From positions 62,001 through 126,000 of the forward strand of contig JANQNB010000020.1 in the NCBI GenBank assembly GCA_028279755.1: DNA of 64,000 bases. The letters are read 5' to 3'. This document shows positions 15,683-41,424 of this stretch, piece after piece; the stretch's first letter is position 1, and each line of letters begins with the position of its first letter. Source of the stretch: Candidatus Nanoarchaeia archaeon (GTDB lineage: Archaea > Nanobdellota > Nanobdellia > Woesearchaeales > UBA525). A program made the position numbers and the translations under genes. Under the pieces are notes generated by a model. That model was given only the letters and a program-made list of their open reading frames with translations. It had not been told where the DNA came from and made no database searches.

Positions 15683-15684
15683 TT

Positions 15685-20922: not shown

Positions 20923-20972
20923 TGACTGCTGGTATTCTCCACTTGATTAGTACTAATTCAATAATGGAAAAG

Positions 20973-20980
20973 TATATAAA
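20973..20980 (+). promoter_or_regulatory. TATA box upstream of the AbrB-led operon
   Basis: tatataaa, flanked by TAGTACTA at 20948-20955 and 20981-20988. Confidence 0.65.
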
Positions 20981-21024
20981 TAGTACTACTTGCAATAGGG
21001 CCACTAGTAACTGCCAGTGATTAC

Positions 21025-21043
21025 GCGCGGTTGCGCAACGCGC
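21025..21043. promoter_or_regulatory. inverted repeat GCGC-g-GTTGCGCAAC-GCGC upstream of AbrB-like gene
   Basis: Central 10-bp perfect palindrome GTTGCGCAAC with GCGC flanks and one bulged base; GGGGCCCC follows at 21054-21061. Confidence 0.6.
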
Positions 21044-21065
21044 ATAGCAACACGGGGCCCCCGCA

Positions 21066-21218
21066 GTGAAAATAGTAGCTTACAACAAGCAGTATCGCAT
21101 CACTTTGCCCAAAGACCTGGTCAAGGATAAAGGCTGGGATGCAGGCACAGAACTCCGCTTTGTCGAGGACGAACAAGGCAGAATCTATCTCAAACCAATC
21201 AGGGGTGGTCAGGAATGA
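21066..21218 (+). CDS. SpoVT-AbrB/MazE-like DNA-binding protein, 50 aa (GTG start; not in ORF track)
   Basis: MKIVAYNKQYRITLPKDLVKDKGWDAGTELRFVEDEQGRIYLKPIRGGQE*; AbrB swapped-hairpin pattern; ATGA overlap with 21215. Confidence 0.8.
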   Translation: MKIVAYNKQYRITLPKDLVKDKGWDAGTELRFVEDEQGRIYLKPIRGGQE

Positions 21219-23005
21219 CCGCCTTCTCTCGCGCATGGCCGGCAGAGCACTTGCCGCCAGCGGAACGACTGCAAGTCTTTGACGAACTCAAGACACGCGT
21301 GCACAAGGAGTTCGCGCATCTCGATACAGCGCTCGGCCAGGGCTATATCACGCTCGACGAGTACCGTTTCTACCTCAAGCAAGTCTATGACGGCAAGGAC
21401 GAGCGCGAGGTCATGGACCTGATCAGGCGCGAGGAAGCGACGATCCGTGAAAGCATCAGCGCGGCACGTGGCAGCAAGATGCCAGCGGCGGCAGCGTTCA
21501 TGATATTCCTCGTGCTCACCGGGCTCGCCGGGGTCATTCTCGTGCTCAATCCAGGACAGGGCATCACTGGCTTTGTCACCTACGATGCGACAGAAGAAGT
21601 CAGCGTACCTGTCGACCTCCTGTTCACCGAACAGGGTAATGCGTCACTCAATATCACCAACGTCACGGGCCTGAAAGCAAGCGGCATCCTGACTGACGGC
21701 AGCGCCAGCGTGTATCTGCGATTCGCTGATCAACGCTTGCTTGTCTGGGAAGGAGAAACCAGCGTGCCAGTGTATAGCGTGCGTACTGACAAGGAAAGCT
21801 ACGCTCTCAACAGCACGGTGAACGTGACAGTCACGCCTGCAAACGTGAGCTACACCCTCTGGCTGACAGATGAGGCTGGCGAGAAGACCTTGGTGCAGGA
21901 ACAATTCGTGACGACCACGCCTGGCGACTTTGTCCTCGACGCTTTGATCAACGATACCGGCAATGTCACGAAAGTGAGCACGAGCTTCACGGTCAGGAAC
22001 GACACGAACGCGAGCAATGACGTCTTGCGCGAAGAGGAAGCGGCACAACTCGCGTTTGCTGCGACGTGTGTCGACAGCTGTGCCTTCAACCAGACCAATG
22101 AGACCTTGCTGCTTGACGTCGAGCTCAGCGAAGGCTCCAGACTTGAGATCAGCGAAGTCATCAGCGTGCACGAGCGCGCGAACAACGCGCCAGCCATGAC
22201 GCAGGAACTGCCTGACATCGAACTGCGCATCGGCGAGCATGTCGAGATCGAACTCCTGGATTACTTCGAGGATCCTGACGGCGATATGATCACCTTCGAC
22301 TTCATGAATGTCGGCGGCGTCGACATCACCTTGGACGAGAGCACGCTGTTCATCGAAGGGCTTGAAGCAGGCATCGGCCAGAGCATCGTCTACGCCTCAG
22401 ACCTCTACGAGCTGAGCCAGAGCAACCTGTTCACGATCACTGTGCTTGGGAGCAACACGAGCAATGTCACTAATTCCACCAACACCACACAAAACAACAC
22501 TAATTCCACTGTGGTCACACCACCGGTTGTGATCAACGATACCAATATGACAGTCAACGAGACACTCGACTGCTCGAACCCTGATCCCAATGCGCGGCCG
22601 ATTGAATGCCTGCAGCAGGAAAGCCCGGTCTACTTCCCGCCGCAGGCGATCTATATCACCACGACCGGCAGGACGCCGATCGCGCGCATAACGCCGATCG
22701 GTAACCTGCTCTTGACTGGTGAGGTGCACGAGCAGGCGAGCTTCACCGCGAACACGCGCGATTACGTGATCGGCTACGAGAACGAGTTCGGGCGCTTCAC
22801 CCCGACGATCTGGTTCGACAGCGACACCGGCAACCTGTACCTGACTGGCCGCTTATACGAGGAGCGCATCAGCGAAGTGCCGCCGCCAGGCAGCTATGCC
22901 TTGCGGAACAGGAAGGGGATAACGCTCGCCTGGGCGAACCAAGGGCGTGGCGATCTCTATGTGCGCGGCAATGTCATCCCTTACAGAACGACGATAATTG
23001 AATGA
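21215..23005 (+). CDS. TM-anchored surface protein with cytoplasmic helical N-terminus and cadherin-like region
   Basis: Helical N-terminus, TM 'AAAAFMIFLVLTGLAGVILVL', then N-glycosylation-rich beta region with 'IELRIGEHVEIELLDYFEDPDGDMITFDF'. Confidence 0.8.
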   Translation: MTAFSRAWPAEHLPPAERLQVFDELKTRVHKEFAHLDTALGQGYITLDEYRFYLKQVYDGKDEREVMDLIRREEATIRESISAARGSKMPAAAAFMIFLVLTGLAGVILVLNPGQGITGFVTYDATEEVSVPVDLLFTEQGNASLNITNVTGLKASGILTDGSASVYLRFADQRLLVWEGETSVPVYSVRTDKESYALNSTVNVTVTPANVSYTLWLTDEAGEKTLVQEQFVTTTPGDFVLDALINDTGNVTKVSTSFTVRNDTNASNDVLREEEAAQLAFAATCVDSCAFNQTNETLLLDVELSEGSRLEISEVISVHERANNAPAMTQELPDIELRIGEHVEIELLDYFEDPDGDMITFDFMNVGGVDITLDESTLFIEGLEAGIGQSIVYASDLYELSQSNLFTITVLGSNTSNVTNSTNTTQNNTNSTVVTPPVVINDTNMTVNETLDCSNPDPNARPIECLQQESPVYFPPQAIYITTTGRTPIARITPIGNLLLTGEVHEQASFTANTRDYVIGYENEFGRFTPTIWFDSDTGNLYLTGRLYEERISEVPPPGSYALRNRKGITLAWANQGRGDLYVRGNVIPYRTTIIE

Positions 23006-26000
23006 AAATGAAAAGAGGAATGAGAGGCCTCATGCTGTTACTCTTCATCCTGGCTGTGCCTCTCGTCTTTGCGGCGAACGATCCAGGCCACGACACGCTC
23101 TATATCGAGGAGAGCGGCGAGCAGAACCTCACCGGGAGCTTCAACATCAGCGACTGGCTGCGCGTCGCCAACCTGTTCTACAGCGACTATCTCGATATCC
23201 AAGGCAATGGCACCCAGCCAGGGAATTCACGAGCCGAGATCTACGCGACGGCAGGGAACGGCCTGTACTTCAACGCGCCTGGCAATTTCTACTTCGGGAC
23301 AGGCGACGGCACCATGGTATACATCGGCACTTCTGGCGTGAGCCTGAACGTGAGCAGCAACATCTACGCTGGCGGCGTGATCTACCAGGATGATGTTGCA
23401 GTCTGCCTGTCGAACGGCACGAACTGCATTTCAGGAACAAACGAAGGCAATGTGACGAGCATTATCGCAGGGAACGGCATCTCCGTCGATCAGGCAATCG
23501 GTGACGTCACAGTCTCCACTAATGCGGCTACGTGCAGCGGCGGCCAGTACAGTTACTGGGACGGAAACTCTTGGGAATGCGGCACGATCAGCGGTTCCTC
23601 AAGTGCTGGAGGGTGGACGAACACTTCCACCGTTACTTCCACAGACTTGCACGTTAACATCACGACCGGCAATCTTACTGTGATTAATGGCGACCTCATT
23701 GTCGGAAAGACCACTGTATCCGCAGGCCTTGGCGCCAACTCAGTCATTGAATCGGATGACTATATTGTCGCTGGCAATAACAAAGGATTTATCTCACTCA
23801 CTTCGGGAGGAACAGCAACAACGGTGATGCGTATTAGTTCGAGCGATCATTCGGAGTATTTTGCTCTTGGTGATACGATTTTCTATTCTGACAGTACGCA
23901 AGAGATGATCATTAAGGATGGGGGAACTGTCGGTATAGGACCCAACAATGATCCAGGAGCACAACTCGACGTACAAACTGAAAGCAATGCAGTAAAAGGA
24001 TTGGTTGTGCAAGGTGCGGCTTCGCAAAACGCGAACCTTACCGAGTGGCAGAACAGTACTGGTGATGCTTTGGCGTATGTTGATGCTGCTGGCGACCTCT
24101 TTGCACAGGATGGGCAAGTCTGTACAGCTGCAAACGGTTTGTGCAACCAGACAGAGTTCTCGGGAAGTGCGGCTGGTGGTGATTTGTCAGGAACATATCC
24201 TAACCCGAGTGTGCGTGATGATAGTCATGAGCTTGATGCGGCTAATATTACGAGTGGTACGTTGGCGATTGCTCGTGGCGGTACTGGTGCTGCGACGACG
24301 AGTCAGAATTATGCGTTTATTGGTCCGACGAGTGGTGGTGGTGCGCCGAGCTTCCGGGCGTTGGTTGATGGCGACATCCCGGATACGATTACTGCGTCGA
24401 ATTATGTCCGTACGAGTACGTGGACTGATCATGATAATTATCCGAGTGCGTGCGGTGCTGGTGAGGCTGTGCAGGGGCTTGGTGACACGCTGACGTGCAT
24501 CAGTCTGAGCAGTTCCTCCAGTGCCAGCGGCTGGACGAACACGAGCACCCTAACTTCGACAGACCTGAACGTGAACATCACAAGCGGAAACCTCACTGTG
24601 TCTGGTGGTTTCGCGAGCATAGGGACAGATATACTCAACAATGAACTGGAGGTGTCAGGCTCGACTTCAGGGAATATCTTCGCGCGTGTAACAAACCTGA
24701 ACACGCTCGGCGAATCAGGTTTGGTTCTCGGAGAGACCCTTGATGGAGCTACGCCGTTCTATATGCAGCGATATGGTTCCACAGATGCTTCGCGACCGAA
24801 TGATGTCGAATTTATAGCATCCGGATCAGGAGCCGACATAGCGCTCATGCCAACAGATTATGTGGGTATCGGCACGACTGATCCGAACACGACGCTGCAC
24901 GTCGCCGGGGACATCAATGTCACTGCCGGGAATGATATCTGCATTAATGGAGATACTTGTTTGGGGATAGTGGCTGCTGCTGACGGGAATGTCTCTGGCA
25001 GCGGTACTGCGTCGTATGTCCCGTACTGGAGCGATGGGGCTGAGAACCTCGGAGACAGCAATGCGCTCTTTGACGGCAGCAATTTCGATATTGCGTCAGG
25101 CAACTTGGAAGTCGGCGGTACCACGCGGATATCCTCTGCAGGTGCTGGCACCTTTGCCAGCGCGAGCCTGAGCGGCGATATCGATCTCAACAGCAATGAC
25201 CTCTCAGACATCGGCAATCTGTACACGAATGACGCGAGCGGGAATTTCTTCAGCGGCGGTTGTAGCAACAACGAGCACATCACTGGGATCAGTTCGTCAG
25301 GCGTTATCAGTTGCGCAGCGAATAGCGGCAGTTCTGCTGCCGGTGGCTGGACGAACAACAGTCAGAATACGACGACGACCTTGGATGTTGGGATCGGGAC
25401 AACGAATCCTGAAGCGGCGTTGCATGTGAGCGGTGGTGACATCCTCTTGGATAACACGTATAGTATTCGTTGGGATGATTCTGGCGGAACGCCCACTGAC
25501 ATCATCACTCTGAGCGCGGCTGACAATCTTGCGATCGATGCGCCGTCGGGTGGTGATTTTTATTTCAATGGCGCGTCGACGTTCGCGCTTAAGTCTGGTG
25601 GCAATGTTGGCATTGGGCAGGTGACGCCCTTGGCGAAGTTGCACGTGCAGGGCACTGCTGATGATGAAGTTGTTATAGTGAGAGCGTTTTCGAGTCAGAC
25701 TGCTAATCTTCAGGAGTGGCAGAACAGTACTGGGAGTGCTTTGGCCTACGTTGATCCGTCAGGAGACCTCTTTGCACAGGACGGGCAAGTCTGTACAGCT
25801 GCAAACGGTTTGTGCAACCAGACAGAGTTCTCGGGAAGTGCGGCTGGTGGTGATTTGTCAGGAACATATCCTGATCCGAGCGTCCGTGATGATAGTCATG
25901 AGCTTGATGCGGCTAATATTACGAGTGGCACGCTTGCGATTGCTCGTGGCGGTACTGGCGCTGCGACGACGAGTCAGAATTATGCGTTTATCGGCCCGAC

Positions 26001-29000
26001 GAGTGGTGGTGGCGCTCCGAGCTTCCGTGCCTTGGTTGATGGCGACATCCCGGATACGATTACTGCGTCGAATTATGTCCGTACGAGTACGTGGACTGAT
26101 CATGATAATTATCCGAGCGCGTGCGGTGCAGGCACTGCAGTGCAGGGAATCGGCGACACGCTGTCGTGTATCAGTCTTGGCAGTTCTTCTGCCGGCGGAT
26201 GGACGAACACGAGCACGTACACGTACACGAACCTGGAAGTGAATGTGAGCGATTTCTTCTGGGCGAACAGCACCGCTGTTGGTATCGGAACGAAGAGTCC
26301 GCAAGCAGACCTGCATATTCTCGCTACTGGAACGGCTGGAACTCCGAGCATCGCTTCGAATTTCGTTGTGCAACGAAGCGGTGTGGCAACGCATAACGCG
26401 AGGATGGCCCTCATTTCAGGCAATGACGCTAACAGCTTGTTCTACTTTGGAGACACTGACAGCGAAATACGAGGCCGGCTCATGTACAACCACAGTGGTG
26501 ACGCGCTCTCGCTCTGGACAGCGAGTGCGAGAGCTTTGACGATCGATTCCAGTCAGCGGGTGGGTATCGGAACAAACAGCCCTGAGACACTCCTGCACTT
26601 GCTAAGCGATAATCCGATCATCAGGCTGAATGACAGCACTGACGATTCAGAAATGCAGATCCGCTTGGACAGCGGTGTGTTCGAGATCGGCGATGGCAGC
26701 TTGGCGCCGTTGAGGATTGAGACTGGCGCGCCGTCGAACGCCTTCTACATCGAGGCAGATGGAGATATTGGCTTTGGCACGACGAATCCGGAACAGCCGA
26801 TCGACATCGAAGGAACGACTGCTGCAATCCGTCTGAACGACACGGACGGCAGCTATGCCTATGATATCAAAAGCACTGGCACCGTATTCCAGATCTCCAG
26901 GGACGGCAGCGGAGTCAACGAGCTTGTGATGGACAACGTGGGAAACGTCACGGTGTACACTGACGTCTGCATCAGCGGCGGCAAGTGTCTGGGTAGCACG
27001 GGAACCGGCAGCGGTTCGGTCAGCGGCACCGGCACGCAGAATTACCTGACGAAATGGAGTGCTGGCGGTGCTGACATTGAGGACAGCGCCATCTACGAAA
27101 GCGGTGGCAGCGTGGGCATCGGGACGGCCAACCCTTCGACTATACTTGATGTTGTTGGTAGTACAGACACATCTACTGCTCTGCTCGTTCTCAACAATAC
27201 TGGAGACAGTGGAAACCTTATCAAAGGATTCAATGATCTGAACAGAAATATCTTTGCTGTCAATCAAAATGGAGCTGGAGATGGTTTAATCAATCTTGCA
27301 AACGCGAGCGAAGATATTACAGTTAAGCTTGTCTCCAACGGTGATTCCTACTTCACTGGCGGCAATGTCGGTATAGGAACGTCTTCTCCGTCTTATCCGC
27401 TCGAGGTAACAGACACTGCCACCAATATCCTCATTAATGGGACATCGACCGGCCTTCTTATGGTCGACCGTGATGCAACTGCTGATCAACGATTCATGCA
27501 GCTCATGGACAATGATGGGAAGTTCTACATCCGAGCCTTGGATGATTCGTATGCACTGACCTACAACGGCTTCGTTTTGGACATGTCCAATGGTTATGTC
27601 GGTATCGGGACAGACAGTCCGTCAAAAACGCTGGAACTCGCAGCGAATGACGTTCGCTTGCTCTTCAACGACACGAGCTCGAGCGGCGCGCTGATCAACG
27701 ACTGGCAGATCACGATCAACGATGCAGACGGCGGATCAGCCAATAAGTTTGCAATCGATGATCTCACAGGAGGAACGACGCCCTTGATCATCGAGAATGC
27801 CACACCATCCAACACACTCTACATAGACAGAGCGGGTTATATTGGTATTGGGACAAATAATCCGTCAGAAGCGCTCGATATTGTCGGAAATTTCATCAAG
27901 ATTGATAACAATGCTGATGCGGGAGGCGGTTTGGTGATAGATACTGGCAGCACTGCTTCGCAGAATTCGCAGATCATCTTCCGCGACCAAGGTTCCAGTG
28001 ATTGGTATTTGAGGAAAACCACAAATAATGATTTTGATATCTATAGTGGCGATTATGGAGATACTGTCTTTTTCATCGATAACACAACAGGCAACATCGG
28101 CATTCGGACAAGTGATCCCTCACAAGATCTGCATGTGCATGATAGTGCCGCAGCGAATATCTATGTGAACAGTAGTGGGGCTAATGCCAATGTGCTCATC
28201 GACAGAGGTGACTCGACTGACGAGGCGCGAGTGATGTTTTACACTGACGGAAGTGCACTAGTGGCGCTTGGTCTGGATTCTAACTCCGACAATTACCACA
28301 TAGGAAATAGTGGTTTCGCTACCAAATGGATGACGATCAACACCACCACTGGCTATGTGGGCATCGGGACGAGCACTCCAGACAACATGTTGAATTTGGA
28401 AGGTACGGACGGTAGAGTCAGGTTTACTGACACCGACACGCGCGCAATTCTTGATCTGATGAACAACATCTCGACACCTGCTGCTGATACCGAAGGAGGG
28501 CGGGTGAACTTCATGGCGAACGATGCGAATGGAAACCCGACCGTTTATGGGAGGATTGCTGGATGGGTGGCTGATGATACGGAGTCCTCAGAGGATGGTT
28601 ATTTGACATTCCACGTCACCAATGACGGGACTAATTCCCCTGAAGTGATGCGCATCCTTGATTCAGGCTACGTTGGCATCGGGACGACACAACCGAATAG
28701 CACCTTGCACGTGCAGGGCAACATCAATGTCTCCGGACCTGGTAACATCTACTACGAAGGCAACCTCACTGGCTATGGAGCGGACATTGCAGAGAAGATT
28801 TTTGCACATGGCGAGCTCGAAGCCGGCGATGTCGTGATCATCAGCAATACCGGCGACGAAACAGTCGAATTGTCATGGCAAGCGTACGACACGCGCGTCG
28901 CAGGCATTGTCTCAACCGATCCGAGCCATCTGATCAGCGCTGACGCAGGCGACGTGCCGCTCGCACTCTCAGGACGTGTTCCAGTCAAAGTCACGATGGA

Positions 29001-29166
29001 GAATGGCGCTATCGCACGCGGCGATCTGCTCACGACAAGCTCAACGCCTGGCCACGCCATGCGCTGTTCCTCACGAATCGAATGCACTGGCGCGATCGTC
29101 GGTAAGGCGTTGGAATCACTCAATACTGAAACCGGTTTAATCACAGCGCTCGTGGTGTTAGGATGA
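23002..29166 (+). CDS. giant tail-fibre-like surface protein with repeated 'VGIGT..P...LHV' units and C-terminal 'DIAE...GRVPVKV..ENG.I..GD.LT.S' domain
   Basis: Signal peptide MKMKRGMRGLMLLLFILAVPLVFA; more than ten GIGT/P-type units; C-terminus 'GADIAEKIFAHGELEAGDVVIISN...LALSGRVPVKVTMENGAIARGDLLTTSSTPGHAMR...GKALE'. Confidence 0.85.
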   Translation: MKMKRGMRGLMLLLFILAVPLVFAANDPGHDTLYIEESGEQNLTGSFNISDWLRVANLFYSDYLDIQGNGTQPGNSRAEIYATAGNGLYFNAPGNFYFGTGDGTMVYIGTSGVSLNVSSNIYAGGVIYQDDVAVCLSNGTNCISGTNEGNVTSIIAGNGISVDQAIGDVTVSTNAATCSGGQYSYWDGNSWECGTISGSSSAGGWTNTSTVTSTDLHVNITTGNLTVINGDLIVGKTTVSAGLGANSVIESDDYIVAGNNKGFISLTSGGTATTVMRISSSDHSEYFALGDTIFYSDSTQEMIIKDGGTVGIGPNNDPGAQLDVQTESNAVKGLVVQGAASQNANLTEWQNSTGDALAYVDAAGDLFAQDGQVCTAANGLCNQTEFSGSAAGGDLSGTYPNPSVRDDSHELDAANITSGTLAIARGGTGAATTSQNYAFIGPTSGGGAPSFRALVDGDIPDTITASNYVRTSTWTDHDNYPSACGAGEAVQGLGDTLTCISLSSSSSASGWTNTSTLTSTDLNVNITSGNLTVSGGFASIGTDILNNELEVSGSTSGNIFARVTNLNTLGESGLVLGETLDGATPFYMQRYGSTDASRPNDVEFIASGSGADIALMPTDYVGIGTTDPNTTLHVAGDINVTAGNDICINGDTCLGIVAAADGNVSGSGTASYVPYWSDGAENLGDSNALFDGSNFDIASGNLEVGGTTRISSAGAGTFASASLSGDIDLNSNDLSDIGNLYTNDASGNFFSGGCSNNEHITGISSSGVISCAANSGSSAAGGWTNNSQNTTTTLDVGIGTTNPEAALHVSGGDILLDNTYSIRWDDSGGTPTDIITLSAADNLAIDAPSGGDFYFNGASTFALKSGGNVGIGQVTPLAKLHVQGTADDEVVIVRAFSSQTANLQEWQNSTGSALAYVDPSGDLFAQDGQVCTAANGLCNQTEFSGSAAGGDLSGTYPDPSVRDDSHELDAANITSGTLAIARGGTGAATTSQNYAFIGPTSGGGAPSFRALVDGDIPDTITASNYVRTSTWTDHDNYPSACGAGTAVQGIGDTLSCISLGSSSAGGWTNTSTYTYTNLEVNVSDFFWANSTAVGIGTKSPQADLHILATGTAGTPSIASNFVVQRSGVATHNARMALISGNDANSLFYFGDTDSEIRGRLMYNHSGDALSLWTASARALTIDSSQRVGIGTNSPETLLHLLSDNPIIRLNDSTDDSEMQIRLDSGVFEIGDGSLAPLRIETGAPSNAFYIEADGDIGFGTTNPEQPIDIEGTTAAIRLNDTDGSYAYDIKSTGTVFQISRDGSGVNELVMDNVGNVTVYTDVCISGGKCLGSTGTGSGSVSGTGTQNYLTKWSAGGADIEDSAIYESGGSVGIGTANPSTILDVVGSTDTSTALLVLNNTGDSGNLIKGFNDLNRNIFAVNQNGAGDGLINLANASEDITVKLVSNGDSYFTGGNVGIGTSSPSYPLEVTDTATNILINGTSTGLLMVDRDATADQRFMQLMDNDGKFYIRALDDSYALTYNGFVLDMSNGYVGIGTDSPSKTLELAANDVRLLFNDTSSSGALINDWQITINDADGGSANKFAIDDLTGGTTPLIIENATPSNTLYIDRAGYIGIGTNNPSEALDIVGNFIKIDNNADAGGGLVIDTGSTASQNSQIIFRDQGSSDWYLRKTTNNDFDIYSGDYGDTVFFIDNTTGNIGIRTSDPSQDLHVHDSAAANIYVNSSGANANVLIDRGDSTDEARVMFYTDGSALVALGLDSNSDNYHIGNSGFATKWMTINTTTGYVGIGTSTPDNMLNLEGTDGRVRFTDTDTRAILDLMNNISTPAADTEGGRVNFMANDANGNPTVYGRIAGWVADDTESSEDGYLTFHVTNDGTNSPEVMRILDSGYVGIGTTQPNSTLHVQGNINVSGPGNIYYEGNLTGYGADIAEKIFAHGELEAGDVVIISNTGDETVELSWQAYDTRVAGIVSTDPSHLISADAGDVPLALSGRVPVKVTMENGAIARGDLLTTSSTPGHAMRCSSRIECTGAIVGKALESLNTETGLITALVVLG
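24043..24541 (+). repeat. ~0.5 kb internal direct repeat, copy A (copy B 25714-26210)
   Basis: Near-identical DNA from gagtggcagaacagtact through ...ggctggacgaacac; protein 'LFAQDGQVCTAANGLCNQTEFSGSAAGGDLSGTYP.PSVRDDSHELDAANITSGTLAIARGGTGAATTSQNYAFIGPTSGGGAPSFRALVDGDIPDTITASNYVRTSTWTDHDNYPSACGAG' in both. Confidence 0.92.
25714..26210 (+). repeat. ~0.5 kb internal direct repeat, copy B
   Basis: See copy A; offset 1671 bp (in frame). Confidence 0.92.
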
Positions 29167-32096
29167 GAACACTGGTCTTCATACTACTGCTGGCCTCACT
29201 CGCTACCAGCGTAAGCGGTGCAGTCAGCGACATCACGACTACAGGAACGATAGAAGGGAACGATTTCACTGAAGGCGGTTCAGACACGCTCACGAACGAC
29301 ATCAGCGGGAACGCAGCGAGCGCGACCACAGCGACGAGCGCGTCAGACCTCAGCTGCACGAACTGCGTCGTTGGTAGCGAGGTCGATGAATCGACACTGA
29401 GCGGCACAGCTGCTTCGCTCACTGTCGGTAATCTCAGCTGCACTGACTGCCTGACCTCAGCCGAGATTTCAGACTTGTACTTGTTGAATTCTGGGGACAC
29501 TGCCAGCTCTGAAGCTGGATGGAATTTCGACAGTAACACCTTCACGATCGCTGTTGCCGGCCCTGCTGGCATCGGAACGAACACGCCGACAGAAGAATTG
29601 CAGCTGGACGGGCAAATGTTCGTGACTGGCGGCGAGTTCTGGTTCAACGAGACAGACCAGTCAGGCGTGCTGGGTTTGTGGCGTTTGTATGCGCAAGAAT
29701 ACAAAAGCAATCCTGCCTTTTACTTGGATCAGAACAACGCGACAGCGCGCGATTTCTCAGACTATCACAACATCCTCATGATCGATAGCTCTGGCAGCCT
29801 CTTGCTGGGTGGTGCAGGCAGAACAGGAGATTATGCCATCACCATGACTATCACCCCGAACGCCGGCGCTGTCGGCTTCGGCACGACAGGCCCTGGAGAG
29901 AACCTCGATCTTGAGAGCAATGACGTGGACGAAGCCATTCAATTCGAAGTGCTGAATGGCTCTGCCGGCCCGAACAGCGGCTCATCGTTCGAGGATGACA
30001 ATACTGTCGGCACGGTCGAATGGGACGATCCTTCTTTTGCTGAGACCAGTGATGACAGCGATGCTGTTGCGCTTTCTGACGGGATATCGCATTATCTCAA
30101 AGTGACTGGCTTTGGTTTTAATCTCCCGTCGAATGCGCAGATCAACGGCATACTTGTCGAAATTGAGAAACAAGGAAGTCAAACTGCTGGTCATCACTCT
30201 GAAGACTCTGAGATAAAGATCATCAAAGGCGGAACGATTGGATCAACCAATAAAGGAACGACAACATATTGGCCGGCAAGCGATACCTATGTCTCGCACG
30301 GCAACTCAACCGATCTCTGGGGGGAAACCTGGACAGCGAGTGACATTAATGACGTTGACTTCGGTGTCGCCATCAGCGCAAACACCACTGATGACCCGTG
30401 CTGTTCTGACAATTCGGCAAATGTGGACCACGTGCGGATGACGATCTACTACGATATCAACTACACGCTTGGCTTGGATGACAGTGACAGCGATAAATGG
30501 AAGATCGCAGCAAGCGACGCGCTCGGCACTGACGACGTCATCACTATCAACTCGAGCGGCGCGGTCGGAATCAACACTGACACTCCGGAAGACTTCTTCC
30601 ATGTCAACGGCAGCATTCAGAACAATCCGGATGTGATGGAAATAGTCGCAGAGTTAACGTACACTGATGCGGAATTTGATTACATTGCCCATGTCGCGAT
30701 CAGCGGCGGCTATCTCTACGCTGCTTCGTGGACAAACGACAGTCTCAGCATCATCGATATCAGCGAGCCGACTAATCCGAGATTGATCAGTTCAGTCGTT
30801 GACAGCACGTACTACAACCAAGTTATCTCAGTCGATGTAGCAGGAAAATATGTCTACACGCTCTCTGCGGCGAGCAAGTGGCTCACAATCACTGATGTCA
30901 GCGATCCGTCAGACCCGGTCATTGTCGGTTATACAGACGAATTCCTCAACAATCCTCGTTCAGTGAAGGTGGTGGGACCGTATGCATACACTGCTGAGAA
31001 CAACTACGAGCTCAACGTGTTCGATATCTCTGATCCGACGAATCCTGAGCATATCAATAACCTGACTGAGAATACTGATTTCGAGAACCTCTGGCCATTA
31101 TACATCCACGGCAATTATGCCTATGTTGGCAGCACTGGCAGGGATCGGGTCGTGGTTGTGAATATCACCAATCCGTTTCTTATGAATGTCTTGGATTCGA
31201 TACAGGATGATCAGTTGAATGATACACGGGATCTTATTGTGCGGGGCAATTATCTCTACGCAACCGCGAATGTCGAAGATCGGCTGACAATTATTAACAT
31301 CACAGATCCTGAGGACATTTCTATCCTGACCTCATTGCAGGATTCGACTTATCTTAATGGCGCGATGAACATCGAACTCTATGGTGACTGGGCCATAGTG
31401 CAGGGAAATCCGTACGTGACTGCTGTTGACATCTCTGATCCTGCGAATCCCTTTGTGGTTGGTTCTGTCTCGATCAGCGGCACGAGCCGAACCGAGGGAA
31501 TGAAAATCGAAGGCGACTACGCCTACGTTGCGGAAGTTGCCAGTGATACCTTGAATGTCATCGATCTCAAGGGCTTGAAGACGCATGCAGCGAGCATCGG
31601 CGCGCTCGAATCGACAGACGTGATGGTTGTCCAGGATATGGATGTCGATCACGACCTGACAGTCCATAACAGCTTGATCGTGGGCCCGCGGGGCATCTTC
31701 ATGGATGGCGATCTGAGCGTGAAAGGCAAAGCCTACGGTGTCCTGCCGCGGATGTACCTCACTGAGTCGACTCACGCAGGCAATCACAACTGCGATGATT
31801 ATCCGATGGACTGCTGCAAGCCTGGCTATCACATGTGCACAACAACGGAATTCCTTGTTAGCGGCCGTGAAATCGAGTTGAGCGGTGATGATCGGGACAC
31901 TGATCCGTATAATGTTGCCGGACTGGTCGATCCTGTTGCGGAAAGCACGGCGCGTGACTGCAACGGCTGGACAAGCGTCAGCGCCAGCGACGAATACTAC
32001 TATTGCAGTTACAGCACCAGCACGACCTGTTCGATCTCAGCCTTGATTGCAGGTTGCGATACAGGATCGTTCCGCGTGTGGTGCTGCAGTGATTAA
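29163..32096 (+). CDS. secreted LVIVD beta-propeller protein with tail-fibre-like N-terminus and Cys-rich C-terminal domain
   Basis: Signal peptide; about seven '(I/V)DISDPTNP...YAYV' repeats; C-terminus 'HNCDDYPMDCCKPGYHMCTTTEF...WCCSD'. Confidence 0.85.
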   Translation: MRTLVFILLLASLATSVSGAVSDITTTGTIEGNDFTEGGSDTLTNDISGNAASATTATSASDLSCTNCVVGSEVDESTLSGTAASLTVGNLSCTDCLTSAEISDLYLLNSGDTASSEAGWNFDSNTFTIAVAGPAGIGTNTPTEELQLDGQMFVTGGEFWFNETDQSGVLGLWRLYAQEYKSNPAFYLDQNNATARDFSDYHNILMIDSSGSLLLGGAGRTGDYAITMTITPNAGAVGFGTTGPGENLDLESNDVDEAIQFEVLNGSAGPNSGSSFEDDNTVGTVEWDDPSFAETSDDSDAVALSDGISHYLKVTGFGFNLPSNAQINGILVEIEKQGSQTAGHHSEDSEIKIIKGGTIGSTNKGTTTYWPASDTYVSHGNSTDLWGETWTASDINDVDFGVAISANTTDDPCCSDNSANVDHVRMTIYYDINYTLGLDDSDSDKWKIAASDALGTDDVITINSSGAVGINTDTPEDFFHVNGSIQNNPDVMEIVAELTYTDAEFDYIAHVAISGGYLYAASWTNDSLSIIDISEPTNPRLISSVVDSTYYNQVISVDVAGKYVYTLSAASKWLTITDVSDPSDPVIVGYTDEFLNNPRSVKVVGPYAYTAENNYELNVFDISDPTNPEHINNLTENTDFENLWPLYIHGNYAYVGSTGRDRVVVVNITNPFLMNVLDSIQDDQLNDTRDLIVRGNYLYATANVEDRLTIINITDPEDISILTSLQDSTYLNGAMNIELYGDWAIVQGNPYVTAVDISDPANPFVVGSVSISGTSRTEGMKIEGDYAYVAEVASDTLNVIDLKGLKTHAASIGALESTDVMVVQDMDVDHDLTVHNSLIVGPRGIFMDGDLSVKGKAYGVLPRMYLTESTHAGNHNCDDYPMDCCKPGYHMCTTTEFLVSGREIELSGDDRDTDPYNVAGLVDPVAESTARDCNGWTSVSASDEYYYCSYSTSTTCSISALIAGCDTGSFRVWCCSD

Positions 32097-32097
32097 G

Positions 32098-33345
32098 ATG
32101 GAAGGAAGAACAAACCACAAAACATTCCTCATCGCTCTAGTGGTCTTGCTCTTCCCTGCTTTGCTCTTGGCAGCGCCGTCAGACATCACGACAAGCGGAA
32201 CTGTCGAGTCAGAAGAATACCAATCAGGCGCGTCGAACACCTTGCCCATCAACGTTACTGGGAGTGCAAGCACAACATCGTTGGCTGCAATCGCGAATCA
32301 ACTTACCTGCAGCGACTGCGTCGGCGGTACTGAGATAGACGAATCCAGCCTGAGCGGCACAGCCTCAAACCTCATCGCAGGCGACATCTCGTGCACGAAC
32401 TGCCTCACCGCAACGGATATCGAGGACATCTACTTGTTCAACACCGGCGACACAGCCACTGGCGACTATGATTTCCAGGATGGCAGCTCGAACACGATCT
32501 TCTATATCGACTCCACGAACAATCGTGTCGGCATCAACACGAGTTCCCCGCTCTATGACTTGCACGTCGTCGGCAAAGCTCTGGTGCAGGATACTGGGAC
32601 GCATCTGTACCTCAACGAGACCGGCCAATCCGGCAGCACTGGCGTCTGGAAATTCGACATCGAAGGTGGTGCATTTCGCCTCATCATGAACAATGCGAGC
32701 GGTCGTGATTTCAGCACCTTTTCTCGTGTCTTAAGCGTCACAACTGACAGCAACCTCCGGCTTGGCGGTGCAGGAACTGGAGTCGTCGCCGAAACCATGC
32801 GCATCTTACCCAACGCAAGCTCTGTCGGCATCGGCGTCGGCGCGCCTGACGAATTTTTGCACCTGCGCAACGATGACGACGATACCGCAATCCAATTCCA
32901 GATCCAGAATGCGTCAGACGGGCCGCGGAGCGGCACGGTCTTCAAAAATGATGATTCTGCAGGCAATAATGCCTGGGAGAATGTCAGCTATGCTCGTGCA
33001 AGCGATGATACTTACGCGAACACAACTCTTGCGTGGGATTGGAGTTATTACCTGAACGCGACGGGCTTCAATTTCAATATCCCTGAGGATGCGACGATTC
33101 TCGGCATAAAGGTAGAGATAGAGATGCGAAGGATAGGAACCGGGATCCGCGATGAGAATGTGTACATTGTGAAGGGTGGCTCGTATGGTGCCACCGACAA
33201 GTCACAGGACGCAATTCTTGATGCAACTGATACATATCGAACATATGGTGGCGCGACTGATTTATGGAGTGAAACATGGACACCGAGCGACATAAACGAT
33301 GAGGATTTCGGAGTCGCAATACGGTTATTTGATTCAACGGCATGA
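32098..33345 (+). CDS. secreted protein equivalent to the N-terminal half of the 29163 paralogue
   Basis: Signal peptide MEGRTNHKTFLIALVVLLFPALLLAAPSD; two C-S/T-D/N-C motifs; ends in '...TWTPSDINDEDFGVAIRLFDSTA*' where the paralogue continues. Confidence 0.82.
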   Translation: MEGRTNHKTFLIALVVLLFPALLLAAPSDITTSGTVESEEYQSGASNTLPINVTGSASTTSLAAIANQLTCSDCVGGTEIDESSLSGTASNLIAGDISCTNCLTATDIEDIYLFNTGDTATGDYDFQDGSSNTIFYIDSTNNRVGINTSSPLYDLHVVGKALVQDTGTHLYLNETGQSGSTGVWKFDIEGGAFRLIMNNASGRDFSTFSRVLSVTTDSNLRLGGAGTGVVAETMRILPNASSVGIGVGAPDEFLHLRNDDDDTAIQFQIQNASDGPRSGTVFKNDDSAGNNAWENVSYARASDDTYANTTLAWDWSYYLNATGFNFNIPEDATILGIKVEIEMRRIGTGIRDENVYIVKGGSYGATDKSQDAILDATDTYRTYGGATDLWSETWTPSDINDEDFGVAIRLFDSTA

Positions 33346-35144
33346 TAAAGATGAAGCGAACAAGACTGTTGGTACTGCTCATTCTCCTACTTAGTGTGCC
33401 CCTGCTTGCAGAGGCTCGATCTGGTGTCATCGATCACATTCGCATCACCGTCTACTACGATCACAACGGCACGCTCGGCATTGACCACAGCGACGGCGGA
33501 AATTTCAAGTGGTCAGCAGACAGCTCCCTCGGATCGAACGACGCGCTCATTGTCGGCGGAGATGAGGTCGGTGTCGGAACTCCACCCTTGGACACCCTGC
33601 ATGTCAACGGCACGATCAGGCAGACGCCGATCGATCCGGTCGAGCTCGCCTATTTCACCAACGCGTCGATCATGGACCAGCCATGGAGTGTGGAAGTGGT
33701 TGACAATATCGCGTATGTCGCTGCGTATGCTAACAATACGATCACTGCAATTGATGTCAGCGACCCAACGAATCCGTCACAGATCGGTTATATTACTGAC
33801 AACACGTACCTTGATGGCGTGCGCTTCTTGGACGTCCAGGGCGATTATCTTTACGCCGGCTCCATCGACCAGAATCCAGATTATTTTGTCGTCATCAACA
33901 TCAGCAATCCTCGGAACATGGAAATCGTTGGGTATGACACTGGCTCGTACAACGGGGGAAACCGCTTGTACAACTGCCAGGGAATTGCCGCTGTCGGCAA
34001 GTATGTCTATGTGAACGGTGCCAGCGACATGTTCCTCGTCTTTGATGTGAGCGACCCGACAGATCCCTTATTAGTGGGATATAATAGTACGACGAATGCT
34101 GAGATTGACAATCCTTGGGAGATCGAGGTCCATGGCGATTTCGCGTATATCTCAAACAGTGGCAATCACAGCGTCACCATTATCAATGTCACTGACCCGA
34201 GCCATCCCCGTATCACTGGCTCGTACACCAATTCGACAACCTTGAATCTGTCCAGAGCTCTTACTGTCCGTGGTAGCTATGCTTATGCGACCGGTTTGTA
34301 TGCTGATGCTTTGTCCATCATTGACATCTCCGACCCGACGAACCCGACGCAAGTAGGTTCTCTGATTGATTCGACAGAGCTGAACGGTGCGTCAGGCATC
34401 AAATTGGCAGGCGACTACGCATATATATCAGGCATCAACGGCGCGCGACTGGCCATCGTTGATATCTCAAATCCGAGGGCGCCATACCTTGTGGACACGA
34501 TCAACACGTTCACGAATGTTCGCGCGCGCTTCGAGATACTCGGCCGCCACCTCTATGCTGCAGACCTGAGCAGCGACCGTCTGGAGATATATGATCTCTA
34601 CGGAAGTTCCCTGCCCACAGCAAACATTGGCGACGTGGCAACGACAAGCATGGACGTGACTGGTTCTGCAGATGTCGGCAATGTGGCAACAGTCGGATCA
34701 GGGTTGAATGTCGGCAAAGGCGGATTGTACGTTGGCGGACAATTTGTCGTCGCGCGACATTCAGAGCTTGGCAACTTCACAGTCAAGGCGACAGGTGTCG
34801 CGAAGACGATGTACATGACCCTGGCCTACCATGACGGCGATCATGATTGCGATGATAACCCTGGGGATTGTTGCGACCCTGGGTATCATATGTGCACGAC
34901 GATGGAGTGGCTTGAAGGCGGACGACAAATCGAAGATTCAGGGACTGATCGGAGGACCAATCCTTATTTGTGGAGCGGTCACGTCAACGCCGGAGCCAAT
35001 GATCCATCGATCGACTGCGATGGATGGACAAGCAATTCAGCGACAAACGAATCGATGAGATGCTACTACACGACCACCATGGTCTGCGGAGCGGTGACTG
35101 ACGACTGTGATACGGCAAGAAATGTCTGGTGCTGCTCAGACTAG
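33342..35144 (+). CDS. secreted LVIVD propeller + Cys-rich C-terminal protein, equivalent to the C-terminal half of the 29163 paralogue
   Basis: ATGA overlap; signal peptide MIKMKRTRLLVLLILLLSVPLLAEA then 'SGVIDHIRITVYYDHNGTLGIDHSDG' matching the paralogue interior; C-terminus '...HDCDDNPGDCCDPGYHMCTTMEW...WCCSD'. Confidence 0.85.
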   Translation: MIKMKRTRLLVLLILLLSVPLLAEARSGVIDHIRITVYYDHNGTLGIDHSDGGNFKWSADSSLGSNDALIVGGDEVGVGTPPLDTLHVNGTIRQTPIDPVELAYFTNASIMDQPWSVEVVDNIAYVAAYANNTITAIDVSDPTNPSQIGYITDNTYLDGVRFLDVQGDYLYAGSIDQNPDYFVVINISNPRNMEIVGYDTGSYNGGNRLYNCQGIAAVGKYVYVNGASDMFLVFDVSDPTDPLLVGYNSTTNAEIDNPWEIEVHGDFAYISNSGNHSVTIINVTDPSHPRITGSYTNSTTLNLSRALTVRGSYAYATGLYADALSIIDISDPTNPTQVGSLIDSTELNGASGIKLAGDYAYISGINGARLAIVDISNPRAPYLVDTINTFTNVRARFEILGRHLYAADLSSDRLEIYDLYGSSLPTANIGDVATTSMDVTGSADVGNVATVGSGLNVGKGGLYVGGQFVVARHSELGNFTVKATGVAKTMYMTLAYHDGDHDCDDNPGDCCDPGYHMCTTMEWLEGGRQIEDSGTDRRTNPYLWSGHVNAGANDPSIDCDGWTSNSATNESMRCYYTTTMVCGAVTDDCDTARNVWCCSD

Positions 35145-35147
35145 AAA

Positions 35148-37703
35148 ATGAGAATGAAAGAAAAGATACGGATGATGCCCTTGTTCCTCCTAGTCCTGAT
35201 GCTCTCACCTTCCACCCTTGCCTTGTCTGACATCGACACGACCGGCACTGCAGACGGCAATGACTTCACTGAAGGCGGCAGCCAGACCCTCACAAATAGC
35301 ATCTCTGGGAATGCCGCAACAGCTGACAGCGCCACTTTCAGTCTTGGTCTCACCTGCACGAATTGCATTGGTGGCCCGGAAGTTGATGAGTCAAGCCTGT
35401 CAGGGCTTGCGAGCTCCTTGACAGCAGGCGATCTCAGCTGCACTGACTGCCTGAACGAGACAGAGATCCAGGATGTCTTCCTCTTGAACACCGGCGATGT
35501 CGGGACAGGCACGTACAGTTTCGAAGGCGGCGTGTTCCACATCGATGCGACGAGGAATCTCGTCGGTTTCAACACTGCCAATCCTGACCAGCCATTGCAT
35601 GTGGAAGGCCAGTTCTACATCAACCACGCGACTGTGCCCGTGTATCTGAACGGCAGCGGCTTCTCTGACAATTCGAACCTGTGGCGTCTCGTGACTCAGG
35701 ATGGCTTCTTCAGGATCGACAGGAACACCAACACAGACCCGGATTTCTCGACATACCAGTCTGTCTTCAAGATATTCAATGACGGCACCATCTGGCTTGG
35801 CGGCACTGGCGCCGATATTGTGCTCGGCACGAGCGAATACCAAAACCCAACGATGGTGATCCAACCAGATGCAGGCAATGTCGGAATCGGCACCCAAGAT
35901 CCCAACAATCTGCTTCATCTCTATGATGAGGATAATGATAATGCCATCGAACTTGAATCATCCACTGACTGGGTCTTCGGTCTTGACAAGAGCGACGGCG
36001 GCCGGTTCAAAGCGACGCAAGGCCTCACCTTCGGCACGAACGATTTCTTCACAGTCTGGGGCAGCAACCTCGGCATCGGCACGACGAGCCCGGAAGAGCG
36101 GCTCCACGTCCATACCTCGTTGAAAGAAACGCCCGCTGACCTGGTTGAGGTTGGCGTGCTCTTGGACGGTGACATGAACCTTTCTGCTGACTTTGATGTC
36201 TATGTCGTTGGCAAGTATGCGTATCTGCCCTCGTTCGGTGATGATGGCCTGACAATCATTGATATCAGCGATCGAACAAATCCCCGGCAAGTCGGTTTTG
36301 TCAGTGACTCTGAGAGCGGCGGGACTGCGACGACACTCGATGGAGCGTTCGGAGTCAAAGTCGTGGGCAACTACGCGTATGTCACTGCCTTGCTCGATAA
36401 TGGACTGTCGATCATTGATATCTCTAACCCGTCAGCTCCTGTGGAAGTCGGCTATCTGAACGACTCGGTAACCTTGGCGGGAATCTACGGTTTGGACGTC
36501 TCTGGAGGATATGCCTATCTCTGTGCAGGTGGCACTGAAGGGCTGGTAATCCTGGATGTCTCCGACCCAACCGACCCATTCATCACGGGTTTTGTCAATG
36601 ACTCTGAGGCTGGCGGTACCGCGAGCATGCTCGAGTCTCCTTGGGACGTAGAAGTCCGTGGCAAGTACGCGTATGTGACTGCATGGGATGATAATGCCTT
36701 GTCGATCATTGATGTGTCTGATCCGACGAATCCTGTTGAGATAGGCGCGATCAACGATTCGTTCACTGGCGGGACAGCGACTGCCATTCGGAATCCGTCA
36801 GGAGTGGCTGTTGCCGGAAGATATGCGTATGTCACCTCAGACGCTGACAATGCCGTTGCTGTCATTGATGTCTCAGATCCTGCCAACCCCGTAGAGGTGG
36901 CTAATATCTCTGACACTGAGTCAGGCGGCACTGCGACAGTATTGGATGGCCCGACCGGCCTTTTCTTGGCTGGCGACTTTTTGTATGTTGCTGCGTACGA
37001 CGATTCAGGGCTCTCAGTCATTGACATCTCAGACCCGACAGCGCCTGTTGAAGTCGCCACGATCGTCGATGGCGGTGAGGCGACGTCTATTGAGGGGATA
37101 TACTCCCCTTTTGTGAGCGGGAGATATGCCTATGTACCCGCTGCTATTGATGAGGATTTCACGATCATCGATCTCCAGGGGTATAAAGGCCATGCCGCTA
37201 CAATTGGCAATCTCGACGCTGGCACGCTCCATGTCACGAACGAGCTTGATGTCGGCAACAATCTCTTTGTGCATGACAGCGTGAGCGTCGGCCCGCAAGG
37301 CGCGTTCAGCCAGGGCGAAGTTCATGTCTCCGGGAACACTAGGATCCAGACGCCGACGATGTATCTCACCATCTCGACCTTGAACGGAACGCATGACTGC
37401 GACGACGACCCAGACAATTGCTGCTATCCTGGCTATCATATGTGCACTGCGATGGAATTCCTCTATGGTGGCCGCCAGATCGAGGATCTCGGCGCATATG
37501 ACCGGGACGGAACCCCGGTGGCCACGTATGGCGATGTCGATCCAGGGGATGACAGCTCTGCCACTGACTGCACGGGTTGGACTTCTGATTCATCGAGCCA
37601 GGAAAAATACCAGTGCCAGTACTCGACCGCGCTGGCCTTCAGCTGCACGATCACGCTCAATGACTGCCATAACACAGATCCAATATGGTGTTGTAGTGAT
37701 TAG
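35148..37703 (+). CDS. secreted LVIVD propeller protein with Cys-rich C-terminal domain
   Basis: Same architecture as 29163; 'HDCDDDPDNCCYPGYHMCTAMEFLYGGRQIED...WCCSD'. Confidence 0.85.
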   Translation: MRMKEKIRMMPLFLLVLMLSPSTLALSDIDTTGTADGNDFTEGGSQTLTNSISGNAATADSATFSLGLTCTNCIGGPEVDESSLSGLASSLTAGDLSCTDCLNETEIQDVFLLNTGDVGTGTYSFEGGVFHIDATRNLVGFNTANPDQPLHVEGQFYINHATVPVYLNGSGFSDNSNLWRLVTQDGFFRIDRNTNTDPDFSTYQSVFKIFNDGTIWLGGTGADIVLGTSEYQNPTMVIQPDAGNVGIGTQDPNNLLHLYDEDNDNAIELESSTDWVFGLDKSDGGRFKATQGLTFGTNDFFTVWGSNLGIGTTSPEERLHVHTSLKETPADLVEVGVLLDGDMNLSADFDVYVVGKYAYLPSFGDDGLTIIDISDRTNPRQVGFVSDSESGGTATTLDGAFGVKVVGNYAYVTALLDNGLSIIDISNPSAPVEVGYLNDSVTLAGIYGLDVSGGYAYLCAGGTEGLVILDVSDPTDPFITGFVNDSEAGGTASMLESPWDVEVRGKYAYVTAWDDNALSIIDVSDPTNPVEIGAINDSFTGGTATAIRNPSGVAVAGRYAYVTSDADNAVAVIDVSDPANPVEVANISDTESGGTATVLDGPTGLFLAGDFLYVAAYDDSGLSVIDISDPTAPVEVATIVDGGEATSIEGIYSPFVSGRYAYVPAAIDEDFTIIDLQGYKGHAATIGNLDAGTLHVTNELDVGNNLFVHDSVSVGPQGAFSQGEVHVSGNTRIQTPTMYLTISTLNGTHDCDDDPDNCCYPGYHMCTAMEFLYGGRQIEDLGAYDRDGTPVATYGDVDPGDDSSATDCTGWTSDSSSQEKYQCQYSTALAFSCTITLNDCHNTDPIWCCSD

Positions 37704-37704
37704 A

Positions 37705-38184
37705 ATGAAACGAACCATGAAAACAATGACTGCACTCTTGCTGCTTGCTACCCTCCTGCTGGCAGGGTGCGCGCAATATGATTTTCAGATCGACGATCAG
37801 GCCTTCGCACAGGAACAGATGGCGCATGCCGCGACGCTCGGAACGATTTATCTGAACGACAAGAGCCAGCAGGGTGACCACAACTGCGATGATACACCAG
37901 AGAACTGCTGCGTCGCAGGCTATCATTTCTGCGATGTCAACGAGGTGCGTGCCGGTGGTCGACGCATGGAGTACAGCGGGACTGAACGGGAAACCACCCC
38001 GTACAACACGAACGGCGATGTGCAGTCGCATCAGAATAGCGCATCGTATGACTGCAGCAAGTGGAGCACAACCACGAGTTCACGCGCCTGGCGAACTGGT
38101 TGCCTGTACACCACTACTATCACCTGCGATTCCAACAACGGCTTGTGCACCGGAAATCTGCGACAATGGTGCTGTTCACGATGA
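37705..38184 (+). CDS. lipoprotein consisting almost only of the Cys-rich C-terminal domain
   Basis: Start trimmed to 37705 (MKRTMKTMTALLLLATLLLAGCAQ lipobox); 'HNCDDTPENCCVAGYHFCDVNEVRAGGRRMEYSGTERETTPYNTNGDV...WCCSR'. Confidence 0.85.
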   Translation: MKRTMKTMTALLLLATLLLAGCAQYDFQIDDQAFAQEQMAHAATLGTIYLNDKSQQGDHNCDDTPENCCVAGYHFCDVNEVRAGGRRMEYSGTERETTPYNTNGDVQSHQNSASYDCSKWSTTTSSRAWRTGCLYTTTITCDSNNGLCTGNLRQWCCSR

Positions 38185-39029
38185 GATTGCTCTTCGTTGT
38201 GTTGTGCAGCTCACTGCTCATATCGGCATGCGCTGGCAATGAGCAATGTGAACGGCTCGCGTACGACAATAAGCACGGGTTGAATGTCGTCTTCTTCCCT
38301 GACGGCTATGGAGAGCAAGAAGCAGACGAGCTTGCACACTACGCAATGGAGAGCATCCTCGCGAAAGAACCGTTCACCTCCAAGCCGTTCATCAATTTCT
38401 ATCGTGTCAAGAACGACGACCCAAGCATCTGCGTCGAAGGCGTCGCCGGCGATGTCATCGGCGGGTTCTCGCACGATCCCCTCGCACCGCTCGACTGCGA
38501 CATCGCGCGTGTCAAGGAACTCGTGAACCAATGCAATATCCCGAAAGGCAAGATCATCGTGTTGACAAACGAAACCGTGGCTGCCCAGACCTCGCTGGGC
38601 TTTCACGAAAGCGGGGTCATGTTCCTGGACATGAAGAACCAGCCGCCAGAGATCATCCAGCACGAGTTCGGGCATTTCTTCGGCCTGGTCGATGAGAAAG
38701 TCAAGCTGTACAGTTTCGCGCTCGGTCCAGGATGGGAGCCAGCGCCCAACTGCGTCACAAGCCTGGACAAAGCAGAGTTGCAGTGGCGTTGGTTGTACCC
38801 TGCAGAGCACGAGTTCGAGCGAGGCTGTGCCGGCAATCCTGACTGGTACAAGCCTGAATACCCGGTCTTGATGAGCGAGTTCCCGGATCCGAGCTGGAAC
38901 TACGGCGTGTTCAACGAATGGTATCTCGGCCAGGTGCTCGACTGCTGCTATGCCCGCACGCCCCCGTTATGTCATGCATTCTTCTCAGCATATCCTGCAT
39001 GGACTGACTGCAGAGCCGAAAGTCATTAA
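38181..39029 (+). CDS. M64-like (IgA peptidase-type) zinc metallopeptidase lipoprotein
   Basis: MRLLFVVLCSSLLISACAG; 'NVVFFPDGYGEQEADELAHYAMESILAKEPFTSKPFINFYRV', zinc motif HEFGHFFGLVDE; ATGA overlap with 37705-38184. Confidence 0.8.
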   Translation: MRLLFVVLCSSLLISACAGNEQCERLAYDNKHGLNVVFFPDGYGEQEADELAHYAMESILAKEPFTSKPFINFYRVKNDDPSICVEGVAGDVIGGFSHDPLAPLDCDIARVKELVNQCNIPKGKIIVLTNETVAAQTSLGFHESGVMFLDMKNQPPEIIQHEFGHFFGLVDEKVKLYSFALGPGWEPAPNCVTSLDKAELQWRWLYPAEHEFERGCAGNPDWYKPEYPVLMSEFPDPSWNYGVFNEWYLGQVLDCCYARTPPLCHAFFSAYPAWTDCRAESH

Positions 39030-39053
39030 TACCAAGCAGCCAATCCTGGACTG

Positions 39054-41393: not shown

Positions 41394-41424
41394 AGCTTTA
41401 TAAGCGCCAAGCCCGGATTCTGGA

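Follow-up and report, generated by a model that had tools for sequence, protein, structure and literature searches.

A Regulator-Anchor-Fibre Cassette Recurring in Woesearchaeota-Lineage Archaea and Its Probable Role in Making Adhesive Surface Fibres

Introduction

What kind of surface system is encoded by an 18-kb archaeal operon that opens with a DNA-binding protein of 50 amino acids (aa) and contains, two genes further on, a secreted protein of 2054 aa resembling the tail fibres of phages? The operon lies on the forward strand, at 21066-39029 of the 64,000-nucleotide (nt) stretch analysed here, called the window, which belongs to contig JANQNB010000020.1 (contig C4) in the genome of a Candidatus Nanoarchaeia archaeon (GCA_028279755.1; G000), 1.49 Mb in size and 94% complete. 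A preliminary description had proposed that its products might assemble a complex extracellular appendage or adhesion layer. Host recognition by DPANN archaea has been called unknown, and tail-fibre-like “antennae” have been reported in a DPANN co-culture, on the host cell (PMC11329633). Sequence comparison identifies the operon as a representative of a regulator-anchor-fibre cassette present in several copies in Woesearchaeota-lineage genomes, and the best explanation overall, to which we assign a probability of about two in three, is a self-regulated cassette making membrane-anchored adhesive fibres.

A Coupled Operon That Recurs as a Cassette

The nine open reading frames (ORFs) of 21066-39029 are all open, with their start and stop codons in place, and are tightly coupled: five of the eight junctions are ATGA overlaps of exactly 4 nt (at 21215, 23002, 29163, 33342 and 38181), and the remaining genes follow the preceding stop after gaps of 1 nt (32098), 3 nt (35148) and 1 nt (37705). 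A scan of the forward strand from 20900 to 39100 for archaeal TATA-type sequences gave a sole 8/8 match, TATATAAA at 20973-20980, ahead of the lead gene, the gene starts inside the operon scoring at most 6/8. The lead gene itself (21066-21218) encodes an AbrB/MazE-type DNA-binding protein (Pfam MazE_antitoxin, PF04014, 34.2 bits vs a cut-off of 24.7), and the third gene a fibre matching the PHROG tail-fibre families phrog_18345 (1.7e-22) and phrog_9942 (1.1e-21). The preliminary description, which had read the locus as a single coupled operon with one strong TATA box before 21066, led by a tiny AbrB-like gene and encoding extracellular fibre- or adhesin-type products, among them a tail-fibre-like protein of 2054 aa, is borne out in these respects.

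The clustering is shared with relatives, so that a lack of conserved clustering, named in the preliminary description as grounds for refutation, does not apply. A search of the order for the gene of the membrane anchor, second in the operon, gave long matches in three families (f1, f36 and f20), often several per genome, and the same order was found in about 20 loci of these families: a DNA-binding gene of small size (some 50-150 codons), joined by ATGA to an anchor gene, joined by ATGA to a fibre gene, with variable extras. In a survey that leaves out G004, the regulator/anchor overlap is exactly 4 nt in the window, in the two other cassettes of its genome (G000:C20 and G000:C21), in G006 (four), G280 (two), G281 and G002, and likewise in G276:C5, G276:C11, G279, G001, G278, G044, G003, G005, G007, G062 and G065; coordinates confirm the cassette order with its 4-nt overlaps in G281, G278, G044 and G006:C30b, and also in G005. 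The anchor/fibre overlap is 4 nt in most loci showing both genes, and the fibres of the cassettes begin, after the signal peptide, with NDPGHDTLYI or a near variant. When named genomes were scanned with the fibre N-terminus, 15 loci were found in metagenome-assembled genomes (MAGs) labelled Woesearchaeota, Nanoarchaeota or Euryarchaeota, besides one weak match in Acidobacteria; judged by these relatives, the window comes from a DPANN archaeon in the Woesearchaeota lineage.

Exchangeable Lead Regulators and Their Candidate Operators

The three cassettes of the window genome are led by three different regulators, and four kinds of regulator fill the lead slot overall: the AbrB of the window type (AbrBa), a second AbrB (G000:C21), a GerE-type helix-turn-helix protein (Pfam GerE, 36-37 bits) and a helix-turn-helix protein weakly resembling sigma-r4. 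The relatives of the window AbrB in family f36 are 51-60% identical to it and likewise lead anchor genes, identities among AbrBa proteins between f1 and f36 being 42-60%.

Upstream of the window AbrB gene lie two proposed binding sites. The palindromic operator TTAGTACTAA (within ATTAGTACTAAT), at 20947-20956, is the only copy in the genome; the second, AAATAGTACTACT at 20978-20990, is a 2-mismatch copy that overlaps or abuts the TATA box, where a bound protein should hinder TBP/TFB. Operator matches number 4 in the window vs 0.17 expected, and the second copy is present also in G002 and G003 as GTATATAAATAGTACT. The palindrome ATTAGTACTAAT, or a near variant, stands at the AbrBa promoters of all six loci, in two families; the 10-mer AATTAGTACT occurs in 6/6 of these promoters vs 0/15 of the other cassette promoters (Fisher 1.8e-5, a value that overstates the independent events, the six loci representing two genera only), and the full TTAGTACTAA in five of the six and in none of the 15. 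Since the palindrome accompanies the AbrBa gene, has a core unique in the genome and lies beside the TATA box, autoregulation by AbrBa is likely.

Cassettes with other regulators carry other candidate operators: TAAGTTATATAACTTA (G280 and G276:C45), TAAGTTTTATAACTTA (G278) and TAGTTATATAACTA (G000:C20) in those led by the GerE-type protein (HTH1), and ACTTATATAATAAGT (three f36 loci) and TACTTACTTAGTAAGTA (G006) in those led by the sigma-r4-like one. For these kinds we hold autoregulation with moderate confidence. The lead DNA-binding gene probably switches its own cassette and is exchangeable between cassettes. That unrelated DNA-binding folds occupy one operon slot, each apparently with its own operator, is the most surprising feature of the system, and the tiny regulator with its ten-base candidate operator is amenable to in vitro work without culturing the organism. 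In G001 (C2:23522-24193), an operator variant, AAATAGTACTAAT, lies about 290 nt ahead of an anchor-like ORF that is truncated, and may mark a decayed cassette.

The Membrane Anchor and the Giant Fibre

The second gene (21215-23005) encodes a protein of 596 aa whose AlphaFold model, built from a 19-sequence alignment, has a pLDDT of 82. It comprises helices (residues 15-85), a transmembrane segment (92-110; inferred topology), immunoglobulin (Ig)-type beta domains (126-411; assigned by Foldseek, with low TM-scores), a disordered linker rich in Asn/Thr (415-449) and, C-terminally (453-596), a domain of short beta repeats that, by eye, are like the GNLxxxG repeats of the fibres. The helices are predicted to be cytosolic and the Ig-like and C-terminal beta domains to lie outside the cell, a correction to the anchored surface protein of the preliminary description. 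An assignment to a particular family by Foldseek was rejected, the Ig-domain matches being many and their TM-scores 0.1-0.2 on the query.

The giant fibre (23002-29166) consists of a signal peptide, a domain beginning NDPGHDTLYIE that we call the dock domain, VGIGT repeats and a C-terminal tip named DIAE; a repeat search also revealed a 300-nt internal duplication (24031-24330 and 25702-26001, 91% identical). The dock domain, of ~115-130 aa, follows the signal peptide in 19 aligned fibres. When ten fibres were compared, the N-terminal 115 aa matched in 45/45 pairs, at 31-75% identity, and the last 140 aa matched only within a group of five and within one pair, leaving four fibres without a match; the group of five is the DIAE tip (window, G001, two fibres of G006 and a 3' piece in G007). 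By these alignments the fibres have a conserved N-end and a swapped C-end. One fibre of G006 ends in a Peptidase_S74 chaperone (31.9 bits vs a cut-off of 22) and also matches T4 gp36. The window fibre has no S74 match in Pfam, and its DIAE tip has no relative in the Protein Data Bank (PDB) and weak Pfam matches only, among which a phage minor capsid protein scores highest. The dock domain was not found in a viral contig collection.

Two further observations concern fibres and their tips. Downstream of a fibre in G006 (C24; L083:9900-11960) lie genes for three secreted proteins of 215-255 aa that resemble phage tail-collar tips (PSGWT...HTH...IPxYxxLxxCxK) and have no Pfam match. In the window genome, the fibre genes of the two other cassettes share an identical terminal stretch of 99 nt that coincides exactly with the contig ends (C20:26352-26450 and C21:7305-7403), which points to a shared repeat that broke the assembly and suggests that fibre bodies are shared or recombining; no contig continuing them was found in the genome bin or assembly.

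Accessory and Neighbouring Genes

Behind the fibre follow genes for second-type fibres that combine a stalk, an LVIVD propeller and a C-terminal Cys-rich (Cys) domain, the latter recognised by alignment. The first (29163-32096, 977 aa, LVIVD 109 bits) and the last (35148-37703, 851 aa, LVIVD 175 bits, TIGR04312 65 bits and below its cut-off) have all three parts. Between them, 32098-33345 (415 aa) aligns to the N-terminal part of the first and stops within a shared domain, and 33342-35144 (600 aa) continues with a new signal peptide, propeller and Cys domain, so that the two are the 5' (stalk) and 3' halves of one split paralogue; the split in mid-domain with a fresh signal peptide recalls gene fission or recombination among paralogues. 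Against a cut-off of 20.2, LVIVD (PF08309) scores 109-175 bits, and all 15 matches in the genome lie within the operon. A lipoprotein of one Cys domain follows (37705-38184, 159 aa).

The Cys domain has no match in Pfam or among PDB sequences and is absent from viral contigs and phages. A first scan of the genome collection with it gave no match; strong matches among 353 genomes of the order were found only in the window genome, in two others of its family and on one stray contig. Cys-domain genes adjoin M64-like genes in G000, G006 and G007, and G007 matches the arrangement of the window: its DIAE fibre is accompanied by a Cys fibre that has no propeller, by a Cys lipoprotein of 155 aa directly before M64 (L016) and by the M64-like gene itself. 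Elsewhere, a lone Cys-domain protein (L046:868-1545, G100:C31) stands among bacterial-type pseudopilin-like genes, possibly on a contaminating bacterial contig, and a weak profile match inside an FGE-sulfatase domain (L048:9421-9570, G061:C61) gives a hint of a C-type-lectin-like fold.

The last gene (38181-39029) encodes a lipoprotein of 282 aa with the zinc motif HExxH (HEFGHFFGLVDE), 49-51% identical to the copies in G006 and G007. The motif reads HEFGH at residues 161-165, with H161, E162, F163 and H165 invariant in the three copies. The Pfam M64 score (PF09471) is 17.4 bits, below the cut-off of 26, and the profile matches PDB 3p1v at E=2.9e-4 with HEFGH aligned; on motif and PDB match we name the protein M64-like only. 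In G280 (f36), an M64-like gene directly follows the fibre (L047:9315-10244, G280:C37) and has HLIGH in place of HExxH; because the catalytic Glu is lost, it probably encodes an inactive, non-catalytic relative kept in the cassette. On present comparisons, the LVIVD and Cys-domain proteins and the M64-like lipoprotein are accessory genes, variable passengers of the cassette. The operon first described stands as a conserved cluster, with the revision that its core is regulator, anchor and fibre. The family with propellers and Cys domains has LVIVD in three genes, one of them half of the split paralogue.

The M64-like gene looks like the conserved cassette's end because the gene after it, visible in two relatives, is not the same as in the window. 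No TATA box stands ahead of the next gene (39054), nor of 41425 and 42665, and the next box is at 43866, for which reason the transcript may extend to about 43807; the genes of 39054-43807 (a fused MFS/spermidine synthase, a secreted protein and a FixG_C-like membrane protein) follow the operon after short gaps and may be co-transcribed. Upstream, a SurA/PpiC-type peptidyl-prolyl isomerase lipoprotein (19702-20901, forward strand; Pfam Rotamase 40.8 bits, SurA_N_3 40.0 bits), which forms a separate transcription unit, is a likely helper in fibre folding; G002, G003 and G005 have a similar gene immediately ahead of their AbrB-anchor genes. Farther away in the window are two ATGA-overlapping genes (15607-18485), with a C-terminal PEP-utiliser mobile domain as sole Pfam match, and an ORF of 2465 aa (80-7477) with a strong composition bias (positive AT skew), as far as seen unrelated to the operon.

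Proposed Function and Alternative Explanations

From the cassette order, the 4-nt coupling, the conserved N-ends with swapped C-ends and the match of operator to regulator, all read from sequence, we infer the following scheme. The 50-aa AbrB would bind at its own promoter, to the palindromes near the TATA box, to set or shut off transcription of the whole unit, a step suggested by the co-conservation of regulator and operator. The coupled second gene would supply a membrane anchor that exposes its C-terminal beta domain to the outside. From the third would come a secreted fibre resembling those of phage tails, which would dock on the anchor, perhaps on its C-terminal domain, by a conserved N-terminal domain and present an exchangeable tip. 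The downstream stalk, propeller and Cys-domain proteins would add more fibres or tips, and trimming of the fibres or the contacted surface might fall to the M64-like lipoprotein. Such fibres would be adhesins of a probably cell-dependent archaeon and may be a means for these archaea to choose and hold other cells, or to select a surface. Fibre-type extracellular proteins were rightly anticipated in the preliminary description, although separate membrane-anchored fibres are more probable than one complex appendage or adhesion layer.

Several points weigh against this scheme. Extracellular domains of this kind could also serve a cell-wall or biofilm role. In G276 the halves of the cassette are found apart, C5 having an AbrB-anchor pair but no fibre, and C45 a fibre gene overlapped directly by that of a GerE-type regulator, with no anchor, which indicates that the regulator is coupled to whichever gene comes next and that docking is not obligatory. 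The HTH1 operators are clear in just 4/9 loci, and the AbrBa motif, besides its narrow spread, was picked after inspection of the promoters. Many cassettes are truncated because MAG contigs often break inside fibres, and AlphaFold obtained no fold for the Cys domain (pLDDT 44).

An ordinary cell-envelope operon, with anchor and fibre as structural, S-layer-associated or wall-like components and the tail-fibre similarity explained by a generic trimeric beta-repeat stalk, seems to us unlikely. The anchor does resemble Ig-rich surface proteins, including the S-layer proteins SbsB, SbsC and EA1 (Foldseek, low TM-score), and the VGIGT repeat is generic; a structural layer would nevertheless be expected to be conserved, whereas the cassette is patchy and multi-copy, with swapped tips and different regulators, and some of its tips are domains such as occur at fibre ends (S74 chaperone, Gly-rich, Cys). 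An origin as a prophage remnant, or as a virus tail module since domesticated, has very little probability: the genes screened in the neighbourhood are cellular, signal peptides and a membrane anchor point to use at the cell surface, and the absence of the dock domain from viral contigs, and of the Cys domain from these and from phages, outweighs in our view the PHROG matches and the S74 and T4 gp36 matches of the G006 fibre that speak for such an origin. A locus of toxin-antitoxin type with a MazE antitoxin at its head, the reading that the Pfam match of the lead gene would favour, is harder still to credit, as no operon protein matches a toxin family and unrelated helix-turn-helix proteins replace the lead gene in other cassettes, so that only DNA binding is conserved. 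These last two readings were rejected (cellular neighbours; no toxin), as was an equation with the SPEARE proteins discussed below (no serine protease or restriction domain).

The scheme of membrane-anchored adhesive fibres also admits a bolder version, which we advance tentatively and consider rather improbable as yet. Paralogous cassettes might be insulated from each other by their swapped regulator-operator pairs, so that one fibre or a chosen subset is displayed and is changed to match partners or to escape recognition. If true, such fibre switching would combine a phage-like swapping of tips with a swapping of regulators.

Comparison With Known Systems

No description of such an archaeal system was found in the open-access literature searched, in keeping with the preliminary description, which knew of no named archaeal system of this composition; a close bacterial analogue in concept does exist in the mosaic adhesive trimer (MAT) superfamily of Bdellovibrio. 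The cassette is real, conserved and, as far as searched, undescribed, and probably encodes an archaeal variant of tail-fibre-like adhesins.

With the tail fibres of tailed phages it shares the repeat stalk, the conserved N-terminus with variable tip, the S74 domain in one relative and the PHROG matches; it differs in having no virion genes seen nearby, in its signal peptides and membrane anchor, and in being chromosomal and multi-copy in archaea. The SPEARE proteins of Nanohaloarchaeota, in which serine protease, adhesion and type III restriction domains form one giant polypeptide (PMC6642349), are likewise very large membrane-anchored DPANN surface proteins proposed for host contact, with adhesion and protease functions, whereas the window holds a multi-gene cassette and none of its operon proteins has a serine protease or restriction domain. 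The IgA peptidases of family M64 share the HExxH...DE motif with the last protein of the operon, which matches PDB 3p1v/4df9 locally; unlike them, it is a shorter lipoprotein below the Pfam cut-off, and its G280 counterpart lacks the catalytic Glu.

The nearest comparison is with the MAT proteins of Bdellovibrio bacteriovorus. These secreted fibres, of which a genome holds many, consist of an N-terminal domain of ~130 aa that does not vary, a beta-repeat stalk and swapped tips (S74, lectin and other); the S74 chaperone tip occurs in 13/21 MATs and is not required of each, and the trimeric fibres are displayed on the surface and bind prey glycans (PMC10769870). The archaeal fibres parallel them in organisation, with a conserved domain behind the signal peptide, a stalk, variable tips and many copies per genome, and presumably also in serving a cell that attaches to other cells, as the predator Bdellovibrio does. 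They differ in that the dock domain is a sequence family of its own, the likeness being one of organisation, in that the window tip is DIAE and not S74, in the added LVIVD propellers and M64-like protease, and in that the archaeal operon adds genes for a membrane anchor and a tiny DNA-binding protein, both outside the description of MAT. The surface partner of the MAT N-domain was left unidentified (PMC10769870); in the archaeal cassette, the anchor is a candidate partner for the fibre N-domain, encoded next door, and fibre switching, if true, would name the kind of anchor still lacking for MAT-type fibres. The cassette offers a concrete set of genes, found again and again, for what is probably an attachment fibre; it includes a candidate dock, the C-terminal domain of the anchor, and defined tips.

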